From NCBI RefSeq assembly GCF_018623055.1, contig NZ_CP076019.1, positions 1,550,001 to 1,614,000 on the forward strand: a stretch of 64,000 bases of DNA, written 5' to 3'. This document shows positions 1 through 5,614 of the stretch, one piece after another. The position numbers were made by a program, and so were the translations under genes. Position 1 is the first letter of the stretch; every line of letters starts with the position of its first letter. The notes below the pieces were generated by a model. The model was not told the origin of the DNA. It saw only the letters and a program-made list of their open reading frames with translations, and made no database searches. This stretch comes from Halorubrum sp. 2020YC2 (GTDB taxonomy: Archaea > Halobacteriota > Halobacteria > Halobacteriales > Haloferacaceae).

Positions 1-11
1 CCGCTTCAGGA

Positions 12-758
12 TTGAACACGCCAGGAGGGTCTGAACCCGAGAGGGACCGAACGTGCGAGACGGACGAGAGTGTCGACTCGAACGCCGATAATTCGAACTC
101 GACTGCGGGGGACGTGCACGAAGGTGGAGGCGGGCAAAACAATCTTGAGAGGGACTACGAGTGTGAGTTTTGTGCAGAGCCATTTGCTAGGGAACGTGAG
201 TTGATGTCTCATCTAACGTCGTGTGCCGAGCGCCCTGATGGTGCTCGCTTCGGGTGCGATCACTGTGACCGCACATACCACTCTCAGCACGCAGTCGACC
301 GCCATGTCGAACGCACTCATGAGCCGGAGCCAGAGGAACAGACAGTACATCGCTGTGCTGACTGTGGAGATAAGTTCGATGCGCCGATGGATCTCCTCAG
401 GCACAAGGCGAGTCACACGGAACACTCGAACGATACCGCTGACACGGACGATTCCTCGGCCCCAACTGGCGGACAACAGCTAAACGACGGATTCGTGGCT
501 CGGGACGATGTCGGTATTGTTGACTACTCTAATCCGGAGGATGGCTATGGGTTCATTTCGACAAGTGAGGTGACTGATGATGTCTTCTTCCACATGAGCA
601 ACGTTGCAGGTCGATTCCCCACAGAGGATGACCTACTACAGTATGATATCCGGGAGACCGATCGTGGGTACGAAGCGGTCGATATCGAGCACAAAGAACG
701 GGCAGAGTCGTCAACCGACCCATTCGCCAGTACACGTACGCGCTGGGGAGGGAATTGA
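12..758 (+). CDS. C2H2-type zinc-finger protein fused to a cold-shock-like domain
   Basis: Seen: three zinc fingers, C51/C54/H67/C71 (CCHC), C82/C85/H98/H103 and C115/C118/H131/H135, after an acidic Ser/Asp-rich N-terminus. A cold-shock-like fold follows at about residues 163-225, with RNP1-like GYGFIS (178-183) and RNP2-like DVFFHM (190-195). Known: cold-shock domains bind single-stranded RNA or DNA, and C2H2 fingers bind nucleic acid or protein. Inferred: a nucleic-acid-binding accessory protein of the island. The only in-window start is a TTG at the very edge, so the gene may begin outside the window. Its base composition is more A+T-rich than the chromosome to the right. Confidence 0.8.
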   Translation: MNTPGGSEPERDRTCETDESVDSNADNSNSTAGDVHEGGGGQNNLERDYECEFCAEPFARERELMSHLTSCAERPDGARFGCDHCDRTYHSQHAVDRHVERTHEPEPEEQTVHRCADCGDKFDAPMDLLRHKASHTEHSNDTADTDDSSAPTGGQQLNDGFVARDDVGIVDYSNPEDGYGFISTSEVTDDVFFHMSNVAGRFPTEDDLLQYDIRETDRGYEAVDIEHKERAESSTDPFASTRTRWGGN

Positions 759-830
759 TTTCAGAGGCTCTGTTGAAATACTATTATTCAGACATAAATT
801 GAGATGAAACATCCGGCCCCTGAAGGGTGC

Positions 831-1001
831 TTATTTTTCGCGGCGTTCCCGACACATTCCACAAAAATCGTCGACCTCATCTACCGATGAAATCTCAATT
901 GTCTCCTCAAACGAATCCTCCTCTGTAAACGTCTGTGCCCACCCGCAGTGATCTGGTTCAGTGAAGTGCCACATCTTGTCTTCCTTACGTGAAACTCTCA
1001 T
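831..1001 (-). CDS. 56-aa small CxxC protein
   Basis: A short ATG-started frame encoding an acidic 56-residue protein. It has a DHCGW segment (C19) in the N-terminal third and a CGMC pair (C47/C50) near the C-terminus, suggesting a small zinc-binding mini-protein. It ends in a charged RERREK tail. The upstream gap to the next minus-strand gene is A+T-rich enough for its own promoter. I do not recognise the family. The codon usage and acidic composition look coding, but the short length leaves doubt. Confidence 0.5.
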   Translation of the reverse strand: MRVSRKEDKMWHFTEPDHCGWAQTFTEEDSFEETIEISSVDEVDDFCGMCRERREK

Positions 1002-1122
1002 ACGGTTTCATTACCAGCATTGCTGATAAGGATGTACCCTGTATTGACCGCAATCGGGGCAAAATAGATCACCTACTGAGGAACAGGGCCAATAATTCCT
1101 AACAGATTCTAACGAGTGTGGT

Positions 1123-1350
1123 TCACTCGTCGGGGTTCGCATCATCCAAGAGCAAGAAGCCCCTTTCAACGCGGATTACGACTTCATCTGTTTCTTCCGG
1201 ATCGATACCTTGCTGCTCAAGTTCCTCCGCGGTCAGGAATACCGGAACTCCAATCGCACCGTCTTTGTCGGTTCGATTAATCTTCGCTTTTCGCAGTTGC
1301 TCAAAGACGCTTTTTGAATCATCTATTTCCTGATCGATATGGCGGGTCAT
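1123..1350 (-). CDS. 75-aa acidic hypothetical protein
   Basis: Encodes a 75-residue acidic protein: an amphipathic N-terminal helix (about residues 1-25), then a segment with GAIGVPVFLTAEELEQQG and a C-terminal beta-like stretch EVVIRVERGFLLL. The layout resembles small swapped-hairpin or antitoxin-like proteins, but no diagnostic motif is visible, so function is not assigned. It lies upstream of, and divergent from, the recombinase operon, which could make it a regulator of that operon (inference). Confidence 0.55.
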   Translation of the reverse strand: MTRHIDQEIDDSKSVFEQLRKAKINRTDKDGAIGVPVFLTAEELEQQGIDPEETDEVVIRVERGFLLLDDANPDE

Positions 1351-1591
1351 GGAACTCCACTCGTGGCAGAGATAGTGTCTGGTTTCGATCCCTTGCGGAC
1401 TCTCGGTATCCTAATTTTAGCACAGTATTTCGGGCTAATTTGTGTTCACTTTTAAAACCTAGTAGCAGACACCCCCCGAAATTGAATCATCTCAACGCTC
1501 TGCTGTGGCAAGCGATGTGTGCTTAGTTAAATATCTTTGTCGACAAGAACTATATTTGTTGCTGGTGAACCTTTTCTTGAGAAATAGTTCG

Positions 1592-2020
1592 ATGACAAAA
1601 CATGTAGCGACCTACCCCACCGACGAACAGTTAGAGCGGTGGAAGTGTGAGGCCGCGGAGATGGATATGTCGTTCTCAGAGTGGATTCAAGCAATGGTCG
1701 AAGCAGGGATGAAAAAATTCAGCCCATCAGTTGAGCGAGACGAGGACATCAACGACCTTCGAAAACAACGGAACAATCTCCGCAAAGAGCTAGAAGCCAG
1801 GAGATCACGCGTCCAAGAGTTGGAAACCGCACTCTACCAAGGTGAGCGTGAAGCAATTGCCGAGTACATCGAGAACAACCCAGGGGCCGAGTACGGCGAA
1901 ATCATCCAGCATATGATGAACTCAACTCCCGAACGGGTGAGTCGTCAATTGGATGTCCTTGATGGAGAGCGGGTACGGCGAGATGAGGAGATGTTCTATC
2001 CAATCGAGAGTGAAAAATAG
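1592..2020 (+). CDS. Coiled-coil DNA-binding-like protein, first gene of recombinase operon
   Basis: Starting at the ATG for MTKHVATYPT gives 142 residues; an upstream in-frame start would add an unlikely hydrophobic leader. The N-terminal part (about 5-40, with SFSEWIQAMVEAGMKKF) looks like a ribbon-helix-helix or MobC-type DNA-binding unit. A strongly charged coiled coil follows (about 48-88), then a C-terminal helical part resembling a winged helix (about 95-135). The stop codon overlaps the next gene's GTG by one base, so the genes are probably translationally coupled. TATA-like AGTTAAATAT lies about 60 bp upstream. Inferred role: accessory or regulatory factor of the recombinase. Confidence 0.65.
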   Translation: MTKHVATYPTDEQLERWKCEAAEMDMSFSEWIQAMVEAGMKKFSPSVERDEDINDLRKQRNNLRKELEARRSRVQELETALYQGEREAIAEYIENNPGAEYGEIIQHMMNSTPERVSRQLDVLDGERVRRDEEMFYPIESEK

Positions 2021-2475
2021 TGGTCTCAACGAAGATCGAAGAGCGGTTGGGGATATACAAGTCACTATCAGAGGTACCGGAAGAGTACCGTTTCTACTCG
2101 TTTTCCCCCGGCATAGATGAGCAAAATATCTGGTCGGAGTGGAACGAAATCCACTCTGATTCTAAGTGGAAGCGTGCGGAGGCACGCCGCGTCAAAGACC
2201 GCTGGGGAGACCATCTCGAAGACACGGGGAGACATTACGCATTAGCGACACCAGAAGATGTCGAGTCTTTCATCAAGGGGCTTCTTGACGAGGTCCAAAT
2301 TGAGCGAGCGTACAAACCCTATTGGCTGTTCCTCAAGCGGTTCTACCACTGGCTCGTGTGGCACACTGAGTATCCACATCGATATAATCCGGTGCTAATG
2401 GCCTCAGCCAACTACCCAGCATGTAATGAAATCTGGGAGTTCGTCATGTCATTCGACAGGGAGTCATTCAAATGA
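2020..2475 (+). CDS. Stand-alone integrase core-binding-like protein
   Basis: A 151-residue protein starting at GTG, overlapping its upstream neighbour by 1 nt and its downstream neighbour by 4 nt (ATGA). The middle is all-helical, with aromatic-rich AYKPYWLFLKRFYHWLVWHTEYPHR at roughly 105-129 (quoted in parts: FLKRFYHWLVWH), reminiscent of the SAM-like core-binding domain of tyrosine recombinases. There is no catalytic domain. The next gene carries its own core-binding domain, so this one is extra: perhaps a directionality or DNA-bending partner (inference). The family is not recognised with certainty. Confidence 0.6.
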   Translation: MVSTKIEERLGIYKSLSEVPEEYRFYSFSPGIDEQNIWSEWNEIHSDSKWKRAEARRVKDRWGDHLEDTGRHYALATPEDVESFIKGLLDEVQIERAYKPYWLFLKRFYHWLVWHTEYPHRYNPVLMASANYPACNEIWEFVMSFDRESFK

Positions 2476-3572
2476 CAAACGAAAAACGCAGAGAGATCGC
2501 AGACGCCTTCGAGAAAGATTTAGATCCGCTCTCGACGCTCGAGGAGACCTTCATCAGAAAGGAACTTGAACCGTTTGAGGCGGCTCTTACCGACCTCATC
2601 GACTACGAAACGACGCCTCAAGGAACGATCAATAACTACACGGTACCAATCAAACAGTGGAAAAGCTTCATGGACAGATATGACCGTCACCCGGCATGCC
2701 CGGCTGAACACCATGTTGGTGCGTTCATTACATACCTCCGGCAAGAACGCGAAAATTCAGACAGCACCATTAAACCGAAGATCCGCCATTTGGATAGCGT
2801 TTTCAAACACTGGCAGTCCGACCCGGCCTTCCCCCACGACGACGCGTTCAATCCATTTTCGAAGGAACTACAGAGAGGTCACTTGTCACCAGAAGAAGCG
2901 AACGAACCGCCACGAATCTCTGTTCCTGAACTCCGTGAGAAGCTCCAAGACGTGAACCACTGGCGAGATCAGTGTATCATTGTGATGCAACTGAAACTCG
3001 GTCTCCGCGCAAGTGAACTGTGTAACATCAAGCTGTCAGAAATCAATCTCCGTCATCAAGAACTGACAGACCACTACGATGAGATGGGGACGCACAGACG
3101 AGTCCGCGACCGGCCCAACTGCGTCTACATTCCGCCTGACCGAGATCTGAACAAGTCAAATGTCCCCCGAGTGCTTCCACTCGACGATGAGATGCGGCTG
3201 CTCCTCATTGAGTATCTTCTCGTGAGGCCCGACAACGGAAAATCATGGCTGTTTCTCTCTCCGACCCGCCATAATCAGATGAACAACTCAAAAATCAACG
3301 AGATTTGGAAAGATTACTTCCACCCCGAATATAAGATGGATCCTGATGATCCATATCGGAGTCTAACCTCACACTTCGGTCGCCACCGGTTCTCAACGCA
3401 CTTCCGAAACGAACGGCAGTGGCCAGAAGAGAAAGTACAGTACATGACGGGCCACAAGGGTAGCTACGACAGCGATCAGCATGACTCACTTGCCACATAC
3501 GTCCACACGTACTACGAAGACATCAAAGACCGATACCTTGACGAGATCTACAAGTTCGGGCTTGGTATCTAA
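2472..3572 (+). CDS. Tyrosine recombinase / site-specific integrase
   Basis: 366 residues: an N-terminal core-binding domain (about 45-120) and a C-terminal catalytic domain (about 145-360). Catalytic residues can be placed: R179 in GLRASEL, K228 near NKSNVPR, H301-x-x-R304-H305, H328 in TGHKG, and nucleophile Y343 in the YVH motif. It catalyses DNA strand exchange at attachment sites through a 3'-phosphotyrosyl intermediate. It is the last gene of a three-gene overlapping operon. Its stop codon overlaps the stop codon of the opposing ATP-grasp pseudogene, so the integrase sits exactly at the 3' end of that gene, a likely integration target. Confidence 0.9.
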   Translation: MTNEKRREIADAFEKDLDPLSTLEETFIRKELEPFEAALTDLIDYETTPQGTINNYTVPIKQWKSFMDRYDRHPACPAEHHVGAFITYLRQERENSDSTIKPKIRHLDSVFKHWQSDPAFPHDDAFNPFSKELQRGHLSPEEANEPPRISVPELREKLQDVNHWRDQCIIVMQLKLGLRASELCNIKLSEINLRHQELTDHYDEMGTHRRVRDRPNCVYIPPDRDLNKSNVPRVLPLDDEMRLLLIEYLLVRPDNGKSWLFLSPTRHNQMNNSKINEIWKDYFHPEYKMDPDDPYRSLTSHFGRHRFSTHFRNERQWPEEKVQYMTGHKGSYDSDQHDSLATYVHTYYEDIKDRYLDEIYKFGLGI

Positions 3573-4885
3573 CTATCCGCAGGTCCTAGGTACCCCCACG
3601 CCTGTAGACGGTCTCCATCGCCGCTGATCCAACGTTCACCGATGTCATCGCGGTAGTACATATTCGGCATCACGATATCATCAATCCGGTCGTACGCTTG
3701 CTCACGCGCTGCCTGCATCGTCTCACCTTTCCCGGTCACAACGATGGGCATCCCATTGCCGCCGGCAACACGCCACTGGCCGTCAACCTTCTTTGCGTCT
3801 TCAAGATGAATCCCTTCGCGGCTCTCCGCCTCGAAGACCACTGCGGCGTTTCGAGAGTTCTCATCGTATGTCTTGTCGTCGTCGAACGGGAACGGTGGGA
3901 GGACAACCCGAATGGCGATCTGGTAACCATTGTGAACCTCTACGTTCGGGTCGTTTCCGTGTGCGAGGTCGTAGAAGAACTCGCCGGTAGACGACTCGAT
4001 TGACTCTTCTTGTAGCGCAATCGTCGGGTACCCGAACCGGGGTGTGAACTCTAGCGGATAGATCCCGCTTTCGTTGACGATACAGTTGATGTCAATGCTT
4101 CCAACGTACCCTTCGTTGGCGAGCCAGCCTTCGAGTTTGCCAAACGTCTCCTCGAACAGTTTGTTCTGCCCCGCCCAGAACATCGACGTTCCCATCTCAC
4201 CAGTCTGTGGACCGATGTTCCAGGGAATAATTTCTTATGCTCAAAATTGAAATTGACTTGGTCAATAAACGTCTCACCGTTGAAGAATCCGCAGATGGCG
4301 ACTTCGACGCCTTGGACTTTCCGTTGGAGTTGGAAGCCCTTCATTCGGTGACCCCACGCCTTCTTGTAAGCACGGAGTACGTCTATAACGTCACTCCCGT
4401 CATCCTCATTCCCGACATAGAGTAATCGTTTGACGTTCTGAACTTCGCCGAGTGGCTTGATGACGTATGGAGCCGGATTCTCTTTGACATGGTTGATGCC
4501 CTCGTCGAAGTCGTGGAAGATGTGGTGCTCAACGGTGTTGACGTCGTGCTCTTCGAGGACCTCCATCGCATAGCCACGATCTTCTTCAAGATGATCGGTT
4601 CGGGGTCCCACCAACGACAGCCTTCCCTTGCTCGCGGAGTTCCTGAGCGAGCTTGCCCGTCCCGATGTCCGGGCCCACCCAGATGTCGTCGAAAATGATG
4701 ACGTCGGCCCAGTCGACCTCCGCCCGCCAATCATCAGTCTTGGGCACGAAGCCATCACCGATTTCCTGATCTCCTTCCGATTCGATGTAGTATTTCACAT
4801 CGTGACCCTCGCGGTGGACTTGCCACGCGAGGTCAGTGATCAGTGCGGCATCGGCGGAAACGAAGAGGAAGTGTTTGGATTCCAT
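3569..4885 (-). pseudogene. Frameshifted foreign copy of a PurD-like ATP-grasp ligase
   Basis: Three overlapping reading frames together encode about 439 residues, the usual length for phosphoribosylamine-glycine ligase-like (PurD-like) ATP-grasp proteins. The N-terminal part (FLFVSADAALITDLAWQV) shifts frame near base 4597, where two bases seem lost after GGTPN. It shifts again near 4223, where one base seems lost after LFPG. The C-terminal part reads cleanly to the stop. It is clearly homologous to, but diverged from and more A+T-rich than, the truncated neighbour upstream, so it came from another lineage. A TATA box lies just ahead of its ATG. The exact substrate of this PurD-like branch is uncertain. 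Confidence 0.8.
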
Positions 4886-4894
4886 TGTTGTGGT

Positions 4895-5614
4895 TTAAGC
4901 AGCGGTGACAGCAGTTTGTCTCTCGGTACACTGCGGTGAGTTATATAATAGATCCCGGAAATAGTGCTCGAAGTTGAAGTTCACCCGGTCGACGAACTCG
5001 TTCCCGTCGAAGAAGCCGCAGACGGCGACCTCGACGCCCTCGACCTTCCGCTGGAGCTGGAACCCCTTCATCCGGTGGCCCCACGCCTTCTCGTACGCCT
5101 TCAGCACGTCGGCCACGTCGCTGCCGTCGTCCTCGTTGCCGACGTACAGCAGGCGCTTGACGTTCTGGACCTCCCCGAGCGGCTTGATCACGTACGACGC
5201 CGGGTTCTCCCGAACGTGTTGGATCCCCGCGTCGAACGCGTGGAAGACGTGGTGTTCGACGGTGTCGACGCCGTGGTCTTCGAGGACCTCCATCGCGTAG
5301 CCGCGGTCCTCCTCGAGACGGTCGGTGTTCGGCGTCCCCCCGACGACCGCGTGTCCCTCCTCTCGGAGTTCCTGCGCGAGTTTGCCGGTCCCCACGTCGG
5401 AACCGACCCAGACGTCGTCGAAGATTATCACGTCGGCCCAGTCGACCTCGGCGCGCCAGTCGTCCGTCTTCGGGACGAACCCGTCGCCTATCTCCCGGTC
5501 GCTCTCGGCCTCGACGTAGTACTTCACGGCGTGGCCCTCGCGGCGGACCTGCCACGCCAGGTCCGTGATCAGCGCCGCGTCGGCCGAGACGAAGAGGAAG
5601 TTCGCGGTGTCCAT
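4895..5614 (-). pseudogene. Native PurD-like ATP-grasp gene truncated at residue 217
   Basis: The G+C-rich, host-like copy: residues 1-217 match the N-terminal half of the neighbouring 439-residue copy (FLFVSADAALITDLAWQV, VIKPLGEVQNVKRLLYVGN, FQLQRKVEGVEVAVCGFF). After NFNFEH the match stops. A 22-residue unrelated tail follows, read out of the promoter region of the foreign copy. The C-terminal ATP-grasp half, including the carboxylate ligase site, is missing, so the product is very probably inactive. The break marks the right border of the integrated island. The lost 3' half might lie at the other end of the element, outside the window. Confidence 0.8.
4941..4950 (-). promoter_or_regulatory. 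TATA box of foreign ATP-grasp copy
   Basis: TATTATATAA on the minus strand, about 56 bp before the ATG of the foreign copy. It lies inside the tail of the truncated native gene, which shows that the incoming DNA brought its own promoter. Predicted from spacing and base composition only. Confidence 0.45.

Follow-up and report, generated by a model that had tools for sequence, protein, structure and literature searches.

A haloarchaeal integrative element that splits a PurD-like gene and carries a complete, recoded copy of it

Results

The window analysed in this work, a stretch of 64,000 nucleotides (positions 1550001-1614000) of the single 3.06-Mb contig of a Halorubrum genome (G000), contains the right end of a 117.5-kb integrative element, which interrupts a native PurD-like ATP-grasp gene at mid-length and carries, next to its integrase gene, a complete second copy of that gene. 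We consider it quite probable that this is a self-rescuing element with a mid-gene target, whose complete copy of the target is apparently protected from the element's own integrase, and that in G000 this copy has decayed. It should be kept in mind that all the evidence comes from sequence, and that each species was represented by one genome.

Ends of the element and the interrupted host gene

The host gene lies on the minus strand and is interrupted after codon 217 of about 438, at window position 4964. Codons 1-217 (4964-5614) are followed in frame by 22 codons of element DNA, the two parts forming the ORF 4895-5614. The rest of the gene was found by a whole-genome DNA search at C1:1436820-1437482, in the same orientation and 113 kb left of the window, which is why the window must hold the right end of the element (positions 1-4963), with the remainder on its left (genome 1437476-1550000). 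This C-terminal half is 81% identical to the island copy, and when the host flanks are joined at the core, the reading frame is continuous over the junction. In most relatives the gene is intact and uninterrupted. The displaced half has no stop codon at the expected end; its frame is open into the next genes (C1:1434767-1437505), which is a sign of decay or of a third lesion.

From core to core the element extends from 1437476 to 1554964 of the genome, these being the positions of a directly repeated 7-bp sequence, GTGCTCG (attL and attR, respectively; attR at window 4964-4970). The left junction reads CTTCTT-GTGCTCG-TATTTCCAAGATCTATTATA, the right one TATATAATAGATCCCGGAAATA-GTGCTCG-AAGTTGAAG. 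The core is flanked by inverted arms of about 20 bp, the right arm (4942-4963) being the inverted partner of the left one, and this combination of short core and inverted arms at both junctions is the architecture expected for a tyrosine recombinase. The attR arm pattern occurs in exactly five of 392 genomes of the order, every time at an attR junction. The GC content is about 54% inside the element and about 70% outside.

A first-pass annotation of the window had described an island border with an integrase beside a complete foreign homologue of a native gene cut after residue 217 near 4963, and had advised looking for the native 3' half to the left and defining the att sites by comparison with island-free strains. 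These proposals were borne out, and its reservation that a native 3' half might never have existed can be dropped. The target was wrongly taken to be the 3' end of the gene, the site being near its middle.

The host gene has a GARS_A domain, and its score against the PurD equivalog model TIGR00877 is 93.6 bits (cut-off 288); the true purD of G000 is elsewhere (C1:1207429, score 392). In 56 of 167 genomes of the family the PurD-like gene is lacking or was not detected, hence it is apparently useful but dispensable, which fits the decay of the element-borne copy in two hosts. This dispensability, and the presence of a canonical purD in G000, count against the rescue interpretation. Trees of haloarchaeal ATP-grasp genes cross genus boundaries, with copies and native genes of several genera intermixed, and this suggests frequent replacement in place.

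The element ORFs that were scanned, a minority of the total, included a HerA-like ATPase and no clear conjugation or capsid gene. Part of the cargo (C1:1493233-1519917) consists of QueC-, viperin/QueE- and DpdA-like genes beside a large helicase cluster of the SNF2/Dru/Dpd type, resembling a 7-deazaguanine DNA-modification defence island. Window positions 3-758 belong to a gene for a protein of 359 amino acids, counting the part left of the window, in which a C2H2 zinc-finger protein and a cold-shock domain are fused.

Integration module and recurrence of the element

The integrase gene (2472-3572, plus strand) encodes a tyrosine recombinase with a Phage_integrase domain (PF00589, E 7.5e-18), it is intact and lies near the right end of the element, 1.4 kb from attR. 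No match to this integrase was found in viral contigs, phages or plasmids. The start of the gene is overlapped by the gene for a conserved 151-aa partner protein (2020-2475, plus strand), which matched no Pfam, NCBIfam or PHROG family and is preceded by a small conserved protein of 142 aa (1592-2020, plus strand, from the ATG at 1592); this order is kept in G038 and in related modules. With their overlapping starts, the genes for the small coiled protein, the partner and the integrase form a three-gene recombination module (1592-3572), and recognisable relatives of it are found at many haloarchaeal integrase loci.

A search of 170 genomes of the family identified two close relatives of the integrase, one in Halorubrum cibi DSM 19504 (G111, contig NZ_FXTD01000007.1; 95% identity), the other in a different genus (G038; 85%), the next best matches being at about 45-47%. 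Searching 392 genomes of the order with the copy added G248, which belongs to another family and whose integrase is 84% identical. We considered that the attR match of G248, having one mismatch, might be due to chance; this was rejected, it is a real fourth element. The integrase clade is thus present in four of the 392 genomes, in two families, and all four elements have a complete copy and share the insertion codon, 217. They also have the same layout: integrase gene, full-length copy arranged stop-to-stop with it, attR, the host gene interrupted at this codon and, at the far end, its C-terminal half. The element measures 117.5 kb in G000, about 74 kb in G038, 76.5 kb in G248 and, calculated from contig positions, about 135 kb in H. 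cibi. At ten loci with more distant integrases (41-46% identical) no ATP-grasp copy was found beside the integrase gene, the partner genes being usually recognisable.

What the G000 and G038 elements have in common is mainly the 3.5-kb segment corresponding to window 1482-4970, which ends at the core and is 79-81% identical. Judged from this comparison, the integration module and the copy together are a conserved unit, while the other cargo differs. Over their leftmost 3.2 kb, the elements of G000 and H. cibi are 99.6% identical, whereas the N-terminal halves of the host genes share only 85% identity; the transfers were hence recent and independent.

The element-borne copy

The copy (3569-4885, minus strand) is full length, and its stop codon overlaps that of the integrase gene. 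Its GC content is below that of both native halves. Relative to the H. cibi copy it has lost 2 nt near 4599-4602 and 1 nt near 4219-4223, and is therefore frameshifted near 4600 and 4221. Both indels are outside long homopolymers; in spite of this, they may be due to sequencing error. The H. cibi copy has neither indel, but has an IS-like interruption at a contig break, whereas the copies in G038 and G248 are intact. With the native gene split and the copy frameshifted, neither version is predicted to be functional in G000. The first-pass annotation had arrived at the same picture: a more A+T-rich second copy with two frameshifts, meeting the recombinase gene stop-to-stop, and a host that lost both versions. 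Since the copy is broken in two of the four complete elements (G000 and H. cibi), rescue is not strictly required.

The copy in G038 does not derive from its present host, whose own gene is merely 53-60% identical to it. No copy was found in viral contigs. Among plasmids the best match (Halarchaeum) proved to be an ordinary uninterrupted gene with an unrecoded core.

Synonymous recoding of the att site

The 7-bp core falls in codons 215-217 of the gene. At the equivalent site of the copy (4237-4243) ATGCTCA stands in place of GTGCTCG, a synonymous difference which escaped the first-pass annotation. Read on the coding strand, all nine element-type copies (G000, G111, G038, G248, G012, G091, G411, G093 and G421) have TTT GAG CAT, i.e. 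the core TGAGCAT, whereas the seven occupied host genes have CGAGCAC, CGAACAC or CGGGCAC and never TGAGCAT (Fisher p about 9e-5, ignoring relatedness).

The recoding might be a by-product of the low GC content and shared ancestry of the copies, which are mutually related and have lower GC3 values (0.66-0.83) than the host genes. We regard this as unlikely, because the G248 copy, with a GC3 of 0.83, still has the recoded site, and because the site stands out within the gene. When synonymous identity was scanned in 12-codon windows among four divergent copies, codons 210-225 were the gene-wide maximum (0.92 versus a mean of 0.55, sd 0.11). In 52 uninterrupted host genes the att site is the global GC3 minimum, and it remains so with amino acids matched (-0.18; the lowest value elsewhere is -0.11, sd 0.044). 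It could also be that the recoding has another cause, such as the target of a second integrase, or a DNA or RNA signal.

Among these 52 uninterrupted genes 29 have the core CGAGCAC and 10 have intermediates; the remaining 13 are fully recoded to TGAGCAT. Across genes, a change in one of the two codons tends to go with a change in the other (p about 9e-7, with relatedness left out of account). Upstream of the recoded host genes the sequence is of host type, and their resemblance to the element copies is confined to the site; the idea that they are recently domesticated element copies therefore found no support. The absence of any further similarity also counts against the interpretation that we favour. 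Their high mutual synonymous identity was likewise dismissed as a special signal, it is unexceptional, as GC-rich genes are alike everywhere. They may represent resistant alleles, conversion tracts or an older history. A broader interpretation, namely a natural recoded-rescue system in which the copy is immune to the integrase and integration-resistant recoded alleles were left in many uninterrupted haloarchaeal genes, is possible, and we put it forward tentatively.

In G119 the PurD-like ATP-grasp gene is interrupted a few codons away from the att site (C1:2275581-2276302). This insertion was examined as a possible trace of the element and rejected, because the inserted DNA is an IS that is unrelated to it and apparently produced an 8-bp target duplication.

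Junction, proposed expression and probable scars

In G000 the truncated host ORF ends with an in-frame tail encoded by the element (YFRDLLYNSPQCTERQTAVTAA followed by a stop; 4895-4963, minus strand). This tail or variants of it (HFRDLLYNSPQSVATQTEITAA and similar sequences) are present in G000, G111, G038, G012 and G248, and in all five the stop codon is 9 nt before the ATG of the copy. The arm of G411 is different, yet the distance between tail stop and copy start is the same 9 nt. The conserved in-frame tail and spacing suggest that the host promoter would drive expression of the copy, by way of reinitiation. The TATA box noted in the first-pass annotation was also recognised, as the TATA-like sequence TTATATAATAG upstream of the copy and within the att arm (4941-4951), and could allow independent expression.

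In G012, G091 and G411 an intact copy follows a gene truncated at codon 217-220, the surrounding DNA being GC-rich. No close integrase was detected in the roughly 10-18 kb fetched around them, and no C-terminal half was reported. The first-pass annotation reasoned that such a tandem in an uninterrupted relative, without the island, would refute its interpretation. The tandem does exist in these three genomes, but the truncation and the GC-rich flanks make them look like scars left after loss of the element. G012 has kept the exact attR arm, and the protein encoded by its copy is 98% identical to that of G038, a member of another genus. The G012 sequence matches the G038 copy up to the last codons and is host-like beyond them; scars of this type would result if the copy recombined with the displaced C-terminal half. 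In G093 a decayed copy and an integrase remnant are present, and an intact native gene is found elsewhere.

These observations could also be understood if the copy were not for rescue and served as a homology arm, or as allele-spreading cargo, promoting recombination and gene replacement. The nearly identical copies of G038 and G012, located beside far more divergent truncated native genes, and the scars, in which the copy became the resident gene, speak for this explanation. We nevertheless find it rather improbable: the element integrates site-specifically at exact att cores and not by homology, at the DNA level the copies often share no more than about 80% identity with host genes, and the tail with its constant spacing suggests expression after integration.

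The first-pass annotation assumed that the element had carried its donor's copy along. On such a view, the element once excised or recombined with the donor gene attached, and the copy is a neutral passenger next to attR. The copy is indeed foreign, adjoins the att site, and has decayed in G000 and G111. Passive carry-over is nonetheless very doubtful, as the copy is present in all four elements of the clade, across two families, is intact in G038, G248 and the scars, and belongs to the module that was kept while other cargo was exchanged. In pairwise comparisons among the elements the dN/dS of the copy is 0.034-0.077, that of the integrase 0.09-0.24; by this measure (0.03-0.08) the copies are under strong purifying selection, and appear to be a conserved, selected part of the module.

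It is extremely unlikely that this is a regulated gene-intervening element, whose programmed excision would restore the host gene with the copy being incidental: insertion in mid-gene with exact att sites kept is also seen with the gerE element of Bacillus cereus (PMC5595907), but here a complete copy is brought along, most hosts have no element at all, and once separated the host halves decay (the C-terminal half of G000 lacks a stop at its end, the N-terminal half of G012 has an internal deletion).

Discussion

The scheme that we favour for the self-rescuing element is as follows. Its tyrosine recombinase would recombine the 7-bp core in codons 215-217 and cut the host gene in two, and the complete second copy supplied beside the integrase gene could allow the host to keep the function. 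The cut host frame runs into the short tail and stops just before the start codon of the copy, whose expression might depend on the host promoter, on reinitiation or on the TATA-like box of the att arm. As the copy preserves the protein but has a synonymously recoded att site, the integrase of the element should spare it. Subsequent homologous recombination of the copy with the displaced C-terminal half could remove the element, so that the copy becomes the resident gene, as the scars suggest. In G000 the copy has decayed by the two frameshifts, so that neither version should work.

It is instructive to compare this arrangement with known systems. Integrative elements and prophages of the icd, prfC and tRNA types rebuild the end of the gene that they target. 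They are similar in having a site-specific recombinase and in that element sequence at the att junction preserves the function of the target. They provide, however, only the lost part beyond the core, whereas the element described here cuts its target at mid-length and provides a whole, separately started gene; the N-terminal half is not completed, it ends at the element stop after 22 codons, and the C-terminal half is 117 kb away. Synthetic home-and-rescue gene drives use a recoded target gene. The likeness to these drives is an analogy only: in both cases a gene is disrupted by an insertion that also supplies a recoded version, resistant (here putatively) to the enzyme responsible. Our element is, in contrast, natural, recombinase-based and prokaryotic, and we do not claim drive or homing.

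Archaeal elements with protein-coding targets are known. According to the portions available of two papers (PMC8371274, PMC6563490), Halorubrum virus BJ1 integrates in the HMG-CoA reductase gene, thaumarchaeal integrated mobile elements (iMGEs) use protein-coding genes, and one of the latter as well as a casposon also target phosphoribosylamine-glycine ligase. The thaumarchaeal sites are 3'-distal, unlike the mid-gene site found here, and in the same portions a complete recoded replacement copy is not mentioned for BJ1 or the thaumarchaeal iMGEs. The suicidal integrases of the SSV type (PMC8371274) are likewise archaeal tyrosine recombinases, but their gene contains attP and is split on integration, whereas the integrase gene found here stays intact, with the att site 1.4 kb away. 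A complete recoded replacement copy was not encountered in the literature searched, the coverage of which is incomplete and does not prove novelty.

If our interpretation is correct, target repair by integrative elements would be widened from regeneration of part of a gene to supply of a whole, recoded replacement gene, and by supplying a whole gene such an element would gain access to mid-gene target sites. Integration, followed by loss of the element with the copy remaining as the resident gene, would provide a mechanism by which a chromosomal gene can be replaced horizontally in place. At the att site, the synonymous signal would offer a directly testable case of selection exerted by a recombinase on synonymous codons.
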